DNA of 20,547 nucleotides from Candidatus Micrarchaeum sp. (lineage in GTDB: Archaea; SpSt-1190; DYHY01). The stretch spans positions 25,213 through 45,759 of the forward strand of contig DYHY01000006.1 of the NCBI GenBank assembly GCA_020723935.1, read 5' to 3'. Below, one piece after another: positions 1,138 through 9,325 of this stretch (within the stretch, counting starts at the first letter, position 1; every line of letters begins with the position of its first letter). The notes below the pieces were generated by a model that was not told the origin of the DNA, ran no database searches, and saw only the letters and a program-made list of their open reading frames with translations. The position numbers were made by a program, and so were the translations under genes.

Positions 1138-2004
1138 CTAGGATGGCCCGGAGGGCTCGATGTCTTCCTTGCCTGCCTCTTCCTCTTTCCCCTCTTCGGG
1201 CACGCCGTTCCCTTCCTCGGATTCGCCCTCCTCCTTGACTGCCTCCATCTCCTCTTCCTGGGGGGACTTGCGCTTCTTGGATGGCTTCTTCTTGGGCTTC
1301 TCCGACGCGCCTTCTCCGGCCGACGGGGATTCCTCCCCCTCGTCCTCGACGTCGCCTGCGGCTTCCGCCTCCTCTATCTGCTCCTCGATGGGCTTCACCG
1401 GCTCGGGCTTGGGCCTCCCTACGGAGAGAGGCGGGTTGATTATCTGTATCCGCCTGATGTCGACGTTCTTTATCGGGTAGATCTTCTTGACCTCCTCGCG
1501 GACGGCCTTCTGGATCTTCTCGTCTATTGTGTCGGTCAGGAACTCCTCGAAGGTCTTCGCCTTGGCTAGCTCGAAGATGAGGCGCATCATCGCGCGCCGG
1601 ATCTTGCCCTTCTGGCTCGAGCGGCACTTGCTCGCCGTTATGATGAGGGGCTTTATCCTCAGGCGGATGCCGTCGCGGCCCTCCACTGATATCACCGCCT
1701 CGATCTTGGTTATGCGGCGCCGGACGAGGCTCCTCACGTACGCGCGCACGAGCTCGAACTCCCTGATCTTGGTGTGGGCCTTGGCGCCCTCGAGGTGGGT
1801 TATCTCCAAGAGGAGCTTCATGTGCGCCTTCTTGGGGTCGTCGGTCACGTCGTAGACAGTCGTGTCTATCCTCTTGCCCGGGACGGTCTTGGGCTCCGTC
1901 GCGATGATCTTGCCGATGTCCACGTTGTGGAAGAGGTCCGGAGCGACGACGCTGTACCAGCTCTTCCTCTTCCAGCGGTCCTGCGCTGTCCCTTTCGTTG
2001 CCAT
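1138..2004 (-). CDS. rps3ae: Small ribosomal subunit protein eS1 (S3Ae) with long acidic tail
   Basis: This is an archaeal/eukaryotic 30S/40S subunit protein placed by homology at the platform near the mRNA exit. The N-terminus contains DRWKRKSWYSVVAP and the middle contains RSLVRRRITKIEA and CRSSQKGKIRRAMM, typical of eS1. The conserved domain ends near residue 195 at the PPLSVGRPK segment. About 90 further residues are a low-complexity Glu/Lys/Ser/Pro tail, making the protein 288 residues against about 200 for most archaeal members. The ATG at 2004 lies 3 nt after the uS15 stop and is preceded by a strong SD-like GGGAGG embedded in the end of the uS15 gene, so the two are translationally linked. 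The identity is secure; the role of the tail is unknown. Confidence 0.95.
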   Translation of the reverse strand: MATKGTAQDRWKRKSWYSVVAPDLFHNVDIGKIIATEPKTVPGKRIDTTVYDVTDDPKKAHMKLLLEITHLEGAKAHTKIREFELVRAYVRSLVRRRITKIEAVISVEGRDGIRLRIKPLIITASKCRSSQKGKIRRAMMRLIFELAKAKTFEEFLTDTIDEKIQKAVREEVKKIYPIKNVDIRRIQIINPPLSVGRPKPEPVKPIEEQIEEAEAAGDVEDEGEESPSAGEGASEKPKKKPSKKRKSPQEEEMEAVKEEGESEEGNGVPEEGKEEEAGKEDIEPSGPS

Positions 2005-2007
2005 TTT

Positions 2008-2472
2008 CTACTGCCTCCCTGAGACGATTATCGCGGCCTGCTCGGGATCGTACTCCCACGTAGCCGGCAGCTTCTTCGTCCTCTTGTAGTATTTGGCGAG
2101 GCGCAGGATCTTCATCTCCGTGTTCTGCAGGCCGCGCTTCGAGTGCAGATCGACCTTGGCCGAGACGAGGTGCTTCCTTATCTTGACAGCCTTGGTCATG
2201 AGGTTGAGGAGGTCCTCCGGGTAGTCGCTGGCAAGCTTCCCTTCCCTCAGGATCTGCCCGACCGTCTTCTGGGTCACGAGCTTGACGCTGGGTATCCCCC
2301 ACTGGTCCCTCAGGAGCATCCCTATTTCCGACGACTGGTTGCCTTCCTTGGCGAGCCGAAGGACGATCTTCACGACCTCCTCGGGCGTGTAGCGCATCCA
2401 GGAGGGCGAACTCATCCTCACGGGCCGCGTGCTTCCGCTCTTCCCCTTCTTGTGGGAATAGATTCGTGCCAT
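2008..2472 (-). CDS. rps15: Small ribosomal subunit protein uS15 (archaeal S15/S13e)
   Basis: The 154-residue protein has the N-terminal extension typical of archaeal and eukaryotic uS15, with MARIYSHKKGKSGSTRP at the start and SSPSWMRYTPEEVVKIVLRL. The rRNA-binding helical core contains SAKVDLHSKRGLQNTEMKIL and LAKYYKRTKKLP, the HxDxHSxRGL-like signature of the family. The length matches the family. It is the first gene of a two-gene operon with eS1. A TATA-like element at 2569-2581 on this strand would give a leader of roughly 70-75 nt, longer than most leaders in this window. Close pairing of uS15 and eS1 is common in archaea. Confidence 0.96.
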   Translation of the reverse strand: MARIYSHKKGKSGSTRPVRMSSPSWMRYTPEEVVKIVLRLAKEGNQSSEIGMLLRDQWGIPSVKLVTQKTVGQILREGKLASDYPEDLLNLMTKAVKIRKHLVSAKVDLHSKRGLQNTEMKILRLAKYYKRTKKLPATWEYDPEQAAIIVSGRQ

Positions 2473-4329: not shown

Positions 4330-4869
4330 TCAGGGCCCGCCCGAAGGGCCCACTTTGCCGCGCAGGATCCGCCGTTCCACCGGGTTTCCGCACTCGTCGC
4401 AGACCGCTTTTCCGGGAGGGAAGGCTTTCCCGCACCCGATGCAGGCGAAGGAATATTTCCTCTCCGACGCTATGCCTTTCTGGGCGAGCGGGACAAACCC
4501 TACGCCCGCAGCCCTGCACGCGTTCTGGAGCGCGTAGTCGTCCGTCGCGACCCTCGCGCCCGTCTCGAGGGCGAGGGCGAGCACGCTCATGTCCGCGGCG
4601 CTCAGCTTCGTCTCGCCGATCCTTGCGGCCGCGCGCCCCGCCCGCGCAAGGCCCACCTTCCCGGGGGCTGCGATCCTTACCTTCCCCCCGGCCCACGCGG
4701 CCTGCGCGACCCTGATCCTCGCCTCGGCGGAGACTGCTTCGGAGACGACCTGCGGGGTTGTGAGAAGCTCCCTCTCCAGCGGCGGCAGGCGGTGGAGCTG
4801 GAGGAACGCGGGCGAGTCCAGGATCAGGAGGGCCGGGCCGGCAGGCTTGCTTTCCGAGGAGGCGCCCAA
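4330..4869 (-). CDS. nob1: Endonuclease Nob1 (PIN domain plus zinc ribbon)
   Basis: Nob1 cuts the 3' end of pre-16S/18S rRNA during small-subunit maturation. The 179-residue protein begins with a PIN domain: LLILDSPAFL (Asp18), TTPQVVSEAV (Glu44), LSAADMSVLALALE (Asp93) and VATDDYALQNACRAAGV (Asp110/Asp111) supply the acidic metal site. A zinc ribbon follows with CIGC (Cys143, Cys146) and CDEC (Cys157, Cys160). The length fits archaeal Nob1. The likely start is the TTG at 4869, 7 nt after the stop of the upstream one-TM protein gene, so co-transcription is probable. The upstream gene has a leaderless-type promoter that could drive both. Confidence 0.9.
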   Translation of the reverse strand: MGASSESKPAGPALLILDSPAFLQLHRLPPLERELLTTPQVVSEAVSAEARIRVAQAAWAGGKVRIAAPGKVGLARAGRAAARIGETKLSAADMSVLALALETGARVATDDYALQNACRAAGVGFVPLAQKGIASERKYSFACIGCGKAFPPGKAVCDECGNPVERRILRGKVGPSGGP

Positions 4870-4876
4870 GGGAGAA

Positions 4877-5233
4877 TCACGTGGCTCCGTAGTCGGCGCA
4901 GGTCCTTCCTATGACGGTGAAGCGCAGGAAGCATCCGCAGTCGTGCGCGTTGTCCAGCTTCCAGGAGACGCACGCCGGATCCTTGGACGGGCTGCACGGG
5001 GGGTTTCTCGCCTCCGGGTTCTTGAACTTCTCGAAGGTGTCCCTCCCGACGATCGCCTGCGTGAAGCCGCAAGGCAAGAGCACCGCGTACGCGAGGACGG
5101 AGCCGAAAATGAGGACCCAGATGAAGACGCCCGCGATTATCACGACCGCGAGGGGCACGTCCTTCTTCTCGACCTGCTGGTAGACCTGGTTGTAGTAGTT
5201 GGCGCCCGGTCGGGGTGAGACTTGGCCTCGCAT
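4877..5233 (-). CDS. One-TM cysteine-rich protein, family A (paralogue of 6380-6793)
   Basis: This 118-residue protein has a short Tyr/Gln-rich N-terminus, the charged turn VEKKDVP, one strongly hydrophobic helix (about residues 28-52, with IIAGVFIWVLIFG), and a C-terminal domain of about 65 residues with six cysteines: PCGF, PPC, DPAC, DCGC and TC. The start is the ATG at 5233, with CTTAAATATC centred 27 nt upstream, indicating a leaderless transcript. It is clearly related to the protein at 6380-6793: both share KDVP, AGVFIWVLIFG, PCxF and a final DCxxFLRxTVxG. An outward cysteine domain with disulphides is plausible. The gene precedes nob1 by 7 nt. No known family is recognised. Confidence 0.75.
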   Translation of the reverse strand: MRGQVSPRPGANYYNQVYQQVEKKDVPLAVVIIAGVFIWVLIFGSVLAYAVLLPCGFTQAIVGRDTFEKFKNPEARNPPCSPSKDPACVSWKLDNAHDCGCFLRFTVIGRTCADYGAT

Positions 5234-5252
5234 CTCGCGATACTGGCCTGCG

Positions 5253-5266
5253 GCCCGATATTTAAG
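5253..5266 (-). promoter_or_regulatory. TATA box of the one-TM protein A / nob1 transcript
   Basis: The minus strand reads CGCTTAAATATCGG. Its centre is about 27 nt before the ATG at 5233, the spacing expected for a leaderless archaeal transcript. It overlaps the last codons of the frameshifted gene upstream. Confidence 0.6.
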
Positions 5267-5824
5267 CGTTGTTCCGCTTCCAGGGGCCGTATCTGGCCGG
5301 CTTGCCCCCGCGCTCCTCTTGCGCCCTGCGCGCCCTTTGCACCGCGAGGAAGACGCCCGCGCCGAGGAGCGCTACCGCAAGGACGAGCGCCCCGGCGACC
5401 GCGACGCCCGAGAGATCCCGCGAAACCCTGGCCCTGAAGGAGCCCGCGACGGGCGTGAAGGGGGTTCCCTCGTAATGGTCGGAGGGGAGGAACCTCACCG
5501 AGACCATATATTCTCCGGGCCCGCCGAACCTGTAGCCCGCGAGAACTCGCTCCCGTGCGAATGCCCGTAGAGCTCGGTCGCGAGGAGCCTCCCGTCCGGT
5601 CCCGTCACGTTAACGTACGCGTCGATGTGCGTGACCGGGCTCCTGTTCGCAAAAGAGATGCGCGCGGCAAGTATCGATATTTTGTCCGGGAGCGGGCTCT
5701 CCCTCGGCTGGACGACGAGGGCCATGCTCATGCCCTGTGCCTCCACGACCTGCTTGGCGAGGGCGGGCGCGAGGGCAAGCGAGAGGGCGAGAAGGAGAGC
5801 GAGCGCCGGGCGTTTTGGAATCAT
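5262..5824 (-). pseudogene. Frameshifted gene for a secreted, C-terminally membrane-anchored protein
   Basis: The first frame (from ATG 5824) encodes a signal peptide, IPKRPALALLLALSLALAPA, and a β-rich domain with ISILAARISFANRSP and THIDAYVNVTGPDGRLLATE. It then degenerates after YGHSHGSEFS. Shifting frame near 5540-5546 continues the same domain as AGYRFGGPGEYMVSVRFLP and DHYEGTPFTPV, followed by a C-terminal membrane helix (VAVAGALVLAVALLGAGVF) and a basic tail QRARRAQEERGGK, ending at 5262. One missing base around 5542 restores a single protein of about 187 residues. The domain resembles archaeal CARDB/Ig-like surface domains (inference). It may be a true pseudogene, a switchable gene or a sequencing error. 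An A-rich element centred near 5853 could be its TATA box. Confidence 0.7.
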
Positions 5825-5872
5825 CGCGTTTGCGGGCTTCCGGACGCCCTTTTTCTAGTTTTCTTCCTAGCA

Positions 5873-5885
5873 AAGCTTTTTATAG
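5873..5885 (+). promoter_or_regulatory. TATA box of the aIF5A gene
   Basis: AGCTTTTTATAGC lies with its centre about 38 nt before the ATG at 5918, giving a predicted leader of about 12 nt. The divergent frameshifted gene has its own AT-rich element at 5849-5858, so the two promoters sit side by side. Confidence 0.55.
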
Positions 5886-5917
5886 CCACAAAAAAAGCCC
5901 TTTTCCGATACCTTCAG

Positions 5918-6304
5918 ATGAAGCGGCAAGGCGAAATTAGGGAGATAAAGAAGGGGAGTTTCCTGATCCTCGACGACCATCCCTGCAAGATCGTGAGCGT
6001 TGACATCTCGGCGCCGGGCAAGCACGGCCACGCGAAGGCCAGAATTGAGGGGTTCTCAATGTTCGACAACTCGCGCCATTCCATCGTCTCGCCGACGCAT
6101 TCCAAGTGCGAGATACCGATCATAGACAAGAGGCAGGGCCAGGTCCTCGCCGTCACGGGCGATTCGATCCAGCTGATGGACCTCGAGTCCTTCGAGACCT
6201 TCGACATGCCGCTTCCGCCCGACGAGGACGTGAGGCGCAAGGCGACCCAGGGGAACACGATAGACTACTGGGTCGTGATGGACCGAAAGCTCCTCAAGAC
6301 GTAA
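5918..6304 (+). CDS. eif5a: Translation factor aIF5A
   Basis: The protein promotes peptide bond formation at difficult sites and is the archaeal homologue of eIF5A/EF-P. The 128-residue sequence contains the hypusination loop SAPGKHGHAKARIEG, with Lys35 as the lysine normally converted to hypusine, in the N-terminal SH3-like domain. It is followed by HSIVSPTHSKCEIPIID and the OB-fold domain with DSIQLMDLESFETFDMPLP. Length and both domains match archaeal members. The ATG at 5918 is chosen because it begins MKRQGEIREIKKGSFLILDD as in the family; the longer open frame upstream is antisense to the divergent surface gene. It is a single-gene unit with its own TATA element; no deoxyhypusine synthase gene is in the window. 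Confidence 0.97.
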   Translation: MKRQGEIREIKKGSFLILDDHPCKIVSVDISAPGKHGHAKARIEGFSMFDNSRHSIVSPTHSKCEIPIIDKRQGQVLAVTGDSIQLMDLESFETFDMPLPPDEDVRRKATQGNTIDYWVVMDRKLLKT

Positions 6305-6379
6305 GGAAGGCCATCTTCGCCCGGAGAATCCCGCTCAGCCTTGCGAAGGGAAAACGGATTGGGCCGGTCCGGTCTGGTC

Positions 6380-6793
6380 TCAGCGCCCGCCGGGATTCCC
6401 GCCAGGGCTCCCGCCGACGAAGTTGCCGCTGCTGCTCGTTCCGAGGACCGTGAGGCGCAGGAACGTCCTGCAGTCCGTCTCGTTCATGAAATTGAGCGAG
6501 AGCTTGTCTGCGAGGTTGTCCAGCGTCTTCCTGTCGCCTATCACGACCGTGACGAAGCTGCACGGGGAGAATGCGGCGTAGGAGAAGATCCCGCCGAATA
6601 TCAGGACCCAGATGAAGACGCCCGCAAGTATCACGAGGCCGAACGGCACGTCCTTCTCGGCGGCGGGGTTGACCGGGAGCTCCGTCGAGGGCTTCCTTAT
6701 GACGAGGACCTTGGGCTCGGCCCCTCCCGCCTGCGCGGGCGGGTCCGCAGCCTTCCTGCGCGCGACGGCCTTCCGGGACGCTTTCCTCGCCAT
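6380..6793 (-). CDS. One-TM cysteine protein, family B (paralogue of 4877-5233)
   Basis: This 137-residue protein starts with a basic, Ala/Pro-rich cytosolic stretch (MARKASRKAVARRKAADPP). The turn AAEKDVP follows, then one hydrophobic helix with ILAGVFIWVLIFG at about residues 54-76, and a C-terminal domain with PCSF, ETDC and FLRLTVLG, ending in a Gly/Ser/Asn-rich tail (GGSPGGNPGGR). The conserved pieces are shared with the protein at 4877-5233, but only two C-terminal cysteines remain, one in each shared motif. The ATG at 6793 is chosen over an upstream start because a TATA-like element (GCTTTTTTATGG, 6818-6829) lies about 31 nt before it. Function and family are unknown. Confidence 0.75.
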   Translation of the reverse strand: MARKASRKAVARRKAADPPAQAGGAEPKVLVIRKPSTELPVNPAAEKDVPFGLVILAGVFIWVLIFGGIFSYAAFSPCSFVTVVIGDRKTLDNLADKLSLNFMNETDCRTFLRLTVLGTSSSGNFVGGSPGGNPGGR

Positions 6794-6809: not shown

Positions 6810-7121
6810 TCAGGACCCCATAAAAAAGCTTTTGTATGCTTCCTCACGCCGGGCAGGGAGCCTCTCCCCGCTCGAAAGGTCCCACTTGTAGCACGAATGC
6901 GCCTTCACAATCCCGAGGCAGAGCGTTGAGCGGTCCCCGTCCACCGCCAGGCTGTCCTGGAGCACGACTTCCGTCCTGGAGCAGAGGCAGTCATCCTGTA
7001 CCCCGCCCCTTTCCGAAGTCATCCTGTCGCAGGGCTTGGCGAGGAGGGCGGCGGCGAGGGCGAGGAGCAGGAGCCTGGCAGCGAGGGCGGCCCAGAGGAG
7101 CGTCCTTTTCCTCGCGCCCAC
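6810..7121 (-). CDS. Small secreted or membrane-anchored cysteine protein
   Basis: The 103-residue protein has a basic N-terminus (MGARKRT) and one hydrophobic stretch of about 22 residues (LLWAALAARLLLLALAAALL) that acts as signal peptide or anchor. The outer part has five cysteines: PCDRM, DCLC, TLCLG and HSCYKW. The probable start is the GTG at 7121, 4 nt after the HD-protein stop, so it should be co-transcribed with that gene. Like the one-TM proteins nearby it pairs a single membrane segment with a cysteine-rich outer part, but no sequence motif is clearly shared. Family not recognised. The stop lies just beyond the TATA element of the next gene. Confidence 0.6.
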   Translation of the reverse strand: MGARKRTLLWAALAARLLLLALAAALLAKPCDRMTSERGGVQDDCLCSRTEVVLQDSLAVDGDRSTLCLGIVKAHSCYKWDLSSGERLPARREEAYKSFFMGS

Positions 7122-7125
7122 TTTA

Positions 7126-7911
7126 CTAGAACTTCATCTCCTTGTCCGGCTCGCTCGCGAGCTTCGCGATGACTTCCACCTTGTCGGCCATACCGCTGGA
7201 CTTTATCTTCTCCATCATCACGTTCTCTATTTGGAAGATGCCGCTGGGGTCCTTCATTATGACCTCTATCCTCAGGGGCGCGCTCTTCCCCTCAAGGATC
7301 CTCACGTCCGATATCGAGCGCGCCGACATCGTGTGTATCCCGAAGTCGCCGAGCTTGTAGGGTATCCTGCTGCGCCCCTCCGTGCAGTCCGTCCCGTCGG
7401 CGATCTTGATTATCGCGGCTTCCGTCGTTATCGACGTCCTGCCCTCGTCGTGGGAGAGGACCGCGTGCAGTATGTCGCACAGGACCGCCACCCTCTTCTG
7501 CTCTTCCGGATAGAACGGCATAAGGAGGCTCTCGAGTATCGGCTTGGTTATCACGACCGACATCACCTCGTGGCCCGCCCTGTGAATGCAGTTCCCCAGG
7601 TCGTGAAGGTAGGCGGCGGCGAAGACTATCACCCTCACGTCGTCGGCGGTGAGGCCCGGGTTGTCGCGTATCGCCGTGAACTCTATCTTCCTCCTCTCGA
7701 AGATCTTGAGGACCGTGAGAGCGTTCGCCCCCACTATCACCGAATGGACCGGACCGTGGTCGTTGTATCCCAGGCGCTTGACCGCCATCACGTTCGCCTG
7801 GTTCTGGTAGCAGAGGATCGTCTGGTTCTTCCTCAGCGCCGCGACGAACCTCTTCGCCGTCGGGTAGTCCGCAAGCTCTGCATCGATTATCGCGTTCTCC
7901 TTCTCAAGCAT
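7126..7911 (-). CDS. HD-domain metal-dependent phosphohydrolase
   Basis: This is a 261-residue protein of the HD superfamily, which hydrolyses phosphate esters such as nucleotides or cyclic nucleotides at a metal site; its actual substrate is unknown. Metal-ligand candidates are DHGPVH (His52, His56), YLHDLGN (His103, Asp104), His114, LHAVLSHD (His149, His154, Asp155) and IADGTD (Asp172). The N-terminal 45 residues are helical, and residues after about 205 form a β/α domain with APLRIEVIMKDPSGIFQIENV. The ATG at 7911 has AGGTGA 8-13 nt upstream. It lies 53 nt after rnhB on the same strand, with no TATA element between, so it is probably read with rnhB. Confidence 0.85.
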   Translation of the reverse strand: MLEKENAIIDAELADYPTAKRFVAALRKNQTILCYQNQANVMAVKRLGYNDHGPVHSVIVGANALTVLKIFERRKIEFTAIRDNPGLTADDVRVIVFAAAYLHDLGNCIHRAGHEVMSVVITKPILESLLMPFYPEEQKRVAVLCDILHAVLSHDEGRTSITTEAAIIKIADGTDCTEGRSRIPYKLGDFGIHTMSARSISDVRILEGKSAPLRIEVIMKDPSGIFQIENVMMEKIKSSGMADKVEVIAKLASEPDKEMKF

Positions 7912-7964: not shown

Positions 7965-8621
7965 TCAGCCGAGCCTCCGCTGCCTCGCTTCCGCGATGAG
8001 CGAATCCACCGTCGACCAGCTCTTCCTCACGATGGCTGGGAGGAACGTCCCCTTGGCGAGGAAGGCCTTGAGGAACGCGCGGGTCCTGGGGTCCGACGGA
8101 TAGCCCGAGCCGAAATCCCCCCAGTCCTCCTTGAGCTTCGCTATCTCCATCTCGCGCGTCACCTTCGCCGCGATGCTCGCCGCGCCGACGATCGGATAGT
8201 CCCGGTCTGCCTTGGGGCGCGCGATTATCTCGATGCCCTGCCTCTCCAGGGGGAGGGCTGAGCGAACCTTCTCCCCGAGCCTCTCGCCGTTCGCCTCTAT
8301 CGAGTCGATGTAGACCTTGGACGCCCGCGAGCCGGAAAGGAGGGCCGCCATCTTCCCTATCTCGAACTTGTTGAGGGACATCCCGCGGGCGTCCAGCTCC
8401 GCGGCCGAGATTATGACTAGTTTCCAGCTCCCGACGCCCTTGAGCTTCTCCAGTATCTCCTCCCTTCTCCTTTCGGTCAGGGTCTTGGAATCGGCGGCTC
8501 CCGCCGCCTTCAGGTCCCCGAGGCGCCCCTCCTCGGCCTCGAAAAGGCAGACAACCATGGGCCCAATCACCGGGCCCTTGCCCGCCTCGTCAATGCCCCC
8601 GACTAGCCTTCCATCCTGCAT
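7965..8621 (-). CDS. rnhB: Ribonuclease HII
   Basis: RNase HII cuts RNA in RNA/DNA hybrids and removes ribonucleotides from DNA. The 218-residue protein starts with VGGIDEAGKGPVIGPMVV, the family signature with the first catalytic Asp and Glu. It continues with ADSKTLTERRREEI, VYIDSIEANGE (third acidic residue) and IVGAASIAAKVTREMEI with a final Asp in the family's WGDFGSGYPSDPRT motif. The ATG at 8621 is chosen because the signature begins 9 residues later, an SD-like GGAGGGG lies about 8 nt upstream and a TATA box is centred 30 nt upstream. The frame is open further upstream but only antisense to the divergent translin gene. Confidence 0.96.
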   Translation of the reverse strand: MQDGRLVGGIDEAGKGPVIGPMVVCLFEAEEGRLGDLKAAGAADSKTLTERRREEILEKLKGVGSWKLVIISAAELDARGMSLNKFEIGKMAALLSGSRASKVYIDSIEANGERLGEKVRSALPLERQGIEIIARPKADRDYPIVGAASIAAKVTREMEIAKLKEDWGDFGSGYPSDPRTRAFLKAFLAKGTFLPAIVRKSWSTVDSLIAEARQRRLG

Positions 8622-8644
8622 CGGCCGTCCCCCTCCATATGGAA

Positions 8645-8657
8645 CGTTTTTAAAACC
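8645..8657. promoter_or_regulatory. Shared palindromic TATA box of rnhB and the translin gene
   Basis: CGTTTTTAAAACC contains the perfect odd palindrome GTTTTTAAAAC (8646-8656). Its centre is 30 nt before the rnhB start (8621, minus) and 27 nt before the translin start (8678, plus). One element can therefore position TBP for both directions, with nearly leaderless transcripts. The 56-nt gap leaves no room for two separate core promoters. Confidence 0.65.
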
Positions 8658-8677
8658 CCTGCCGGAAGTGACAGCCG

Positions 8678-9325
8678 ATGAAGAAGACCCTCTCCTCGGC
8701 CAAGGAGGCCCTCGACGGGCGCCTCGCGTCCTCGGACGCGCTTTCCGCCGGGGCGAGGAACGCCAAGATAGCGGCTGACAGGGCGATGGCGCTCCTGCAT
8801 TCCGGCAAGCGGGACGAGGCCATGGCGCTCCTTTCAGCCTCAACCGAGGGGATAGCGCGCCTGAAATCCGCGATTTCTTCAGATCCCACGCTCTACTACG
8901 CCAATTTCCAGCTGGCCCTGGCCTTCCAGGAATACGCCGAAGCGCGCTTCCTCGTCTCCGCCCTCGCGCGCGAGCCGGAGTTCCCGGACCTGGACGTGCC
9001 CGTCGAAGCCTACATCCTGGGCCTCGCCGACGCGGCGGGCGAGCTCAACCGTGCCTTCCTTGAAGCCAGGATCCGCGGCGACGGAGCCGCCGCATCGTTC
9101 TACCTAGCGGCGGTGAGGCGCATTTCCGAGGCTTTCTCGGATTTCGACTATCCCGACTTCATAATCCCCTCCTTCAGGCGCAAGAAGGATTTCGTGCGCG
9201 GGATCCTCAGCAGCATGCTCTCGGTCCTCGCGAGGGACGGGCGCAGTGGACCCCTACAAGCGGAGCCGCCGGCGGGGACGCAAGAAGGACGCGGGCGCGA
9301 AGAAGGCGCCGTCCCGGAATGCTAG
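8678..9325 (+). CDS. Archaeal translin-family protein
   Basis: Translin-fold proteins are all-helical oligomers that bind RNA or DNA; the archaeal member can form a TRAX-like ribonuclease octamer. The 215-residue sequence carries the family features in order: TLYYANFQLALAFQEYAEA, then VPVEAYILGLADAAGELNRA (the 'yllGl.D..GEL.R' motif), and VRRISEAFSDFDYPDF before a final helix. The ATG at 8678 is 27 nt from the shared TATA centre and likely leaderless. The last 30 residues are Gly/Glu-rich and unlike the family; another frame over the same bases gives a basic tail (DPYKRSRRRGRKKD), so the true C-terminus is uncertain. The gene is followed after 31 nt by the SAH hydrolase gene. Confidence 0.85.
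   Translation: MKKTLSSAKEALDGRLASSDALSAGARNAKIAADRAMALLHSGKRDEAMALLSASTEGIARLKSAISSDPTLYYANFQLALAFQEYAEARFLVSALAREPEFPDLDVPVEAYILGLADAAGELNRAFLEARIRGDGAAASFYLAAVRRISEAFSDFDYPDFIIPSFRRKKDFVRGILSSMLSVLARDGRSGPLQAEPPAGTQEGRGREEGAVPEC

Follow-up and report, generated by a model that had tools for sequence, protein, structure and literature searches.

Two small genes on either side of aIF5A, here called A and B, raise the question of whether their products, each with one membrane helix and two shared cysteine motifs, belong to a protein family of their own, and of what such a pair might do in the membrane. Both lie in a stretch of 20,547 nucleotides of archaeal DNA, hereafter the window, whose relevant features are listed in Table 1.

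Paralogy of the two genes flanking aIF5A

Both open reading frames were found where the sequence-only reading had placed them, on the minus strand, and with the cysteine counts it had given. Its statement that they flank aIF5A stands, with the correction that aIF5A itself is on the plus strand; A and B therefore flank it from opposite sides, B being convergent with it. For B, the mechanical reading frame opens with a GTG at 6847, and the ATG at 6793 is preferred because it is preceded, at a distance of about 25-40 nt, by a TATA-like sequence rich in A and T (TTTTTTATGG). The ATG of A is preceded by CTTAAATATC, at about 30 nt. Between A and its ortholog in another genus (A', see below), differences by codon position were 28/20/49, so that A is under protein-coding constraint.

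A starts with a predicted cytoplasmic tail of about 26-27 residues, followed by a transmembrane (TM) helix at residues ~28-52; the tail of B is longer (50 residues) and basic, and its helix spans residues ~51-75. The six cysteines of A are separated by 24, 7, 10, 1 and about 10 residues, and the two of B are those of PCxF and DCxxFLR. As had been written, both proteins share KDVP, the helix core AGVFIWVLIFG, PCxF and DCxxFLRxTVxG. The last motif had been called terminal, which is not strictly so in B, since about 20 more Gly/Ser-rich residues follow it.

A and B are 38% identical over 92 aa. The E value is 8e-21 for this one comparison and 8e-13 when the full genome of 1.14 Mb is searched, and that genome holds no family member besides them. 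In 200,000 composition-preserving shuffles of both helices, the longest identical run was 8 and the observed 11 was never reached, so that the 11-residue identity greatly exceeds what chance would give between unrelated helices of such composition. A and B are true paralogs. Gene conversion between them need not be invoked for the identical helix and was discarded as its principal cause, because A' resembles B there no less than A does (71% versus 65% identity). Over the 22 identical residues, synonymous codon agreement was 17, slightly more than the 13.4 +/- 2.1 predicted by codon bias. The 103-aa reading frame next to B was also considered as a third local paralog, and rejected for want of profile support and of any reading frame at that place in the other genus.

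Table 1. Features of the locus and their counterparts in genome G001 (positions are those of the window unless a G001 contig or locus is given)
Feature	Position	Strand	Remarks
S3ae-S15 pair	1138-2472		
NOB1-like PIN + zinc ribbon protein	4330-4869	minus	PIN_6 4e-11, PRK12496; directly downstream of A
Paralog A	4877-5233	minus	118 aa; tail, TM helix, six-Cys ectodomain
ORF with C-terminal TM segment	5262-5507	minus	overlaps the next ORF
ORF with signal peptide	5495-5824	minus	
aIF5A	5918-6304	plus	NCBIfam eIF_5A / PRK03999; between A and B, not a family member
Paralog B	6380-6793	minus	137 aa; basic tail, TM helix, two-Cys ectodomain, Gly/Ser-rich end
103-aa ORF	6810-7121	minus	hydrophobic N-terminal segment; several Cys, among them KPC and DDCLC; matches no family
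HD-domain protein	7126-7911	minus	PF01966 5e-7; upstream of B
RNase HII	7965-8843	minus	PF01351 6e-41
Weak translin-family match	8678-9325	plus	PF01997, 5e-5, just under the cut-off
A' (G001)	L003:1492-1821	minus	ortholog of A
B' (G001)	L003:2295-2717	minus	ortholog of B
S3ae-S15 pair (G001)	C17 4559-5929 (L053)		

Members and phylogenetic range of the family

The two genes are not both missing from related genomes. Candidatus Altiarchaeota archaeon CSMAG_2918 (G001), which belongs to another genus of the same archaeal family and is the only other genome of that family in the collection, holds three members: A' (62% identity to A over the matched part), B' (39% identity to B over 112 columns) and a third paralog, C. 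The latter is on a separate contig, where it adjoins a geranylgeranyl-reductase-like gene, so named by sequence reading. All five proteins are similar over their whole length and share the same blocks, namely a KDVP-like start ([KR][DE][VI]P), the IWxxIFG helix with PCxF after it, a brief GxDT-like segment and, further on, DC. A five-member profile recovered them with E values of 2.5e-31 to 2.5e-57, which are so by construction because all five sit in the profile. Support that does not depend on the profile comes from the A-B comparison and from the matches of A and B to the G001 proteins.

Absences outside these members hold within the limits set by how complete the MAGs are (72-98%) and how the genome collections were sampled. 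Profile search found no ortholog of C in the window's genome, where the best counterpart of C's reductase-like neighbour is just 28% identical, and no member in 8 other sampled genomes of the phylum. aIF5A is present in 10/10 genomes of the phylum; at its locus in those 8, gene order differs and no diverged relatives were found. Among 384 further archaeal genomes, no credible member was seen, only weak partial matches (E 0.0015-0.1). On reading, the top four proved not to be members: one ORF matched by its hydrophobic stretch only, one match was to a long protein with no relation to the family, and the others fell in alternative frames of unrelated genes. The remaining ones were dismissed by short partial coverage alone. 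A pattern scan of GTDB species contigs gave no genome besides G001. A viral or phage origin was rejected, viral contigs giving no match for the family and phage records none for A.

The claim that this family is unrecognised was upheld. Pfam, NCBIfam and PHROGs returned chance matches alone for the five proteins (E of at least 0.07), and a search of PDB sequences gave no credible match, so that neither A nor B falls in a well-known family of the libraries searched. AlphaFold2 predicted a long TM helix followed by three short ones for A (pLDDT 73, pTM 0.49) as for B (pLDDT 62, pTM 0.33); fold searches with the A model, of modest confidence, gave meaningless matches alone. The profile search, structure prediction and neighbourhood check that had been proposed for the pair have thus yielded five members, no fold match and synteny in G001. 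A, B and C could also be a known family diverged beyond detection, for instance pilin-like proteins or a small subunit of a translocase or respiratory complex. Many such proteins have a short tail, one helix and a small C-terminal domain, and five known sequences of small proteins make weak profiles. This is nevertheless improbable, as nothing came near significance in Pfam, NCBIfam or PHROGs, nor anything in the PDB sequence and fold searches, and reading of the sequences before the helix revealed no class III signal peptide motif of type IV pilins (K/R-G/A-x with a following conserved Glu).

A, B and C make up a genuine family of membrane proteins, so far unrecognised, narrow in distribution and ordinary in kind; they look like an ordinary lineage-specific family, one of many such. 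They add a small unnamed family to an archaeal lineage of which little has been characterised, and the five-member profile lets further members be recognised.

Helix conservation, cysteines and topology

The membrane helix is conserved across paralogs. With p-values that are descriptive, being uncorrected for ten comparisons among five related sequences, identity in the membrane region (KDVP-TM-PCxF) versus the rest was 65% versus 30% for A-B (p=0.003), 71% versus 28% for A'-B and 50% versus 19% for C-B (p=0.006), and 47% versus 46% for B-B' (Fisher p=0.57), that is without helix excess; ectodomain identity was class-specific (A-A' 56%, B-B' 46%, A-B 30%; contrast p=0.005). Nor is the membrane region better conserved than the ectodomain between A and C. 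The N-terminal tails are conserved neither in length nor in sequence, that of B' reaching about 67 residues. The helix had been described as near-invariant: its core is identical in A and B, but across the five members only I-W-x-x-I-F-G survives, and IWxxIFG-(10)-PCxF is the only invariant pattern of the helix region. All five also keep P27, one Gly, one Thr and the cysteine of DC.

This helix had suggested to the sequence-only reading a specific partner in the membrane, on the premise that TM segments diverge faster than soluble parts, which to our knowledge is no general rule. Such a partner is possible and partly supported; the case is no firmer because the conserved positions favour no single face of the helix (moment p=0.33), and because B-B' shows no helix excess. 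Like the TM-oligomerising bitopic proteins collected in PMC7649602, A and B have one TM helix with conserved residues and soluble parts that diverge between paralogs, and a small-xxx-small pair is found at the outer helix end (aligned-region positions 21 and 25) in 4/5 members. Unlike them, the family has GxxxG in B' only and no one-sided conservation, and oligomerisation would here be hypothetical. Small-xxx-small pairs are only weakly associated with interfaces (PMC7649602).

The same data could be explained, and we give this a substantial though less than even chance of about a third, if A and B were independent, signal-anchored small surface proteins: the helix would serve for targeting and anchoring, with no specific partner, descent and hydrophobic constraint would account for its likeness, and the ectodomains would contact the cell envelope or the environment. 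The missing face periodicity and B-B' helix excess speak for it, as do the low-complexity, unconserved tails (that of B' is rich in P/Q/N) and the narrow phylogenetic range. Small disulfide-rich surface proteins with a signal anchor offer a functional analogy in their short tail, single helix and short Cys-bearing C-terminal domain, although A and B match no described family of that kind by sequence or fold. What hydrophobicity needs is exceeded, on the other side, by the 65-71% identity between the membrane regions of A-type proteins and B against 28-30% outside, and by an IWxxIFG that is invariant, mid-helix Trp included, over three paralog classes.

The cysteines differ by class. The 24-7-10-1-10 spacing is identical in A and A' and nearly so in C, and all three have a conserved CxC (DCGC, DCLC, ECLC). 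B and B' lack exactly four cysteines, two in a loop, the second of CxC and the C-terminal one, as well as the loop that bears two of them. This joint absence fits a B-type that has lost two disulfides, or never had them, and retains a single core one. Disulfides are plausible because the genome encodes an exported DsbA-like thioredoxin, which has a TM segment and the motif CPYC, and also a TM protein of DsbD/CcdA type; VKOR was not found in it. The CxC and the fixed spacing in A, A' and C could instead belong to an active or metal site of redox or metal proteins, of which B would be a degenerate copy. We consider this unlikely, since CxxC is absent, the predicted location is outside, searches revealed no homologous redox or metal family, and the paired loss of four cysteines with one pair kept fits structural disulfides.

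As to topology, one helix is predicted in A and in B, and the charge bias expected of an N-in/C-out orientation is clear in these two alone; the tail of B is strongly basic (11 K+R versus 5 D+E). Because the tails of A' and C have no net positive charge, N-in is not uniform across the family.

Our preferred explanation, held tentatively and at somewhat under an even chance, is that A and B are small bitopic subunits of a membrane complex that dock by the helix they share and whose ectodomains, braced by disulfides, have diverged. Each would span the membrane once, with the N-terminus in the cytoplasm and the C-terminus outside. Its membrane segment ends in PCxF, and its ectodomain would form a small helical unit. 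A core disulfide would join the PCxF cysteine to that of DCxxFLR in every member, and A-type and C-type proteins would have two more, which the B-type would lack together with the loop carrying them. The IWxxIFG helix would dock on a shared partner, either the other paralog or a common polytopic protein, and the diverged ectodomains may give the two subunits different outward contacts. We counted for this the paralogy, the side-by-side retention in two genera, the motif conservation in five members, the paired cysteine absence, the cross-paralog helix excess, the exported thiol-redox machinery, the AlphaFold2 layout and the basic B tail; against it, the tail charge of A' and C, the lack of face periodicity, of a B-B' helix excess, of VKOR and of an indicated partner gene, and the number of sequences, five only. 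Should a common partner for the shared helix exist and the helix dock on it, A and B would mark a lineage-specific membrane complex.

Gene neighbourhood

Gene order is the same in both genera: NOB1-like PIN, A, aIF5A on the opposite strand, B, HD and RNase HII, the HD-domain ortholog of G001 (44% identity) being at the same place. A and B are thus retained around aIF5A despite only 38-62% identity between orthologs. The NOB1-like gene is probably co-transcribed with A, and in G001 its reading frame overlaps the end of A'. These conserved neighbours are translation or RNA genes, with no membrane genes among them, and they indicate neither a partner gene nor any clear link in function. Translation genes commonly cluster in archaea, and A and B could be passengers in such a cluster. 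A bolder reading draws on NOB1, aIF5A and S3ae/S15 nearby: A and B would be obligate partner subunits of a membrane complex, peculiar to this archaeal family, tying translation or ribosome maturation to the membrane, and their cytoplasmic tails, highly basic in B, may bind ribosome or RNA. We regard it as very improbable.

In both genera the S3ae-S15 pair flanks the NOB1/aIF5A/HD/RNase HII block on the same side, in G001 too on the contig of that block, forming a larger conserved synteny block. The two overlapping minus-strand reading frames between A and aIF5A (5262-5824) look like two parts of one exported single-TM protein, separated near 5540 by a frameshift that is either real or an assembly error; they have no counterpart between A' and aIF5A in G001. 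The mechanical start of RNase HII is too far upstream, its domain beginning at residue 83, and the weak translin-family match on the plus strand overlaps this too-long start.
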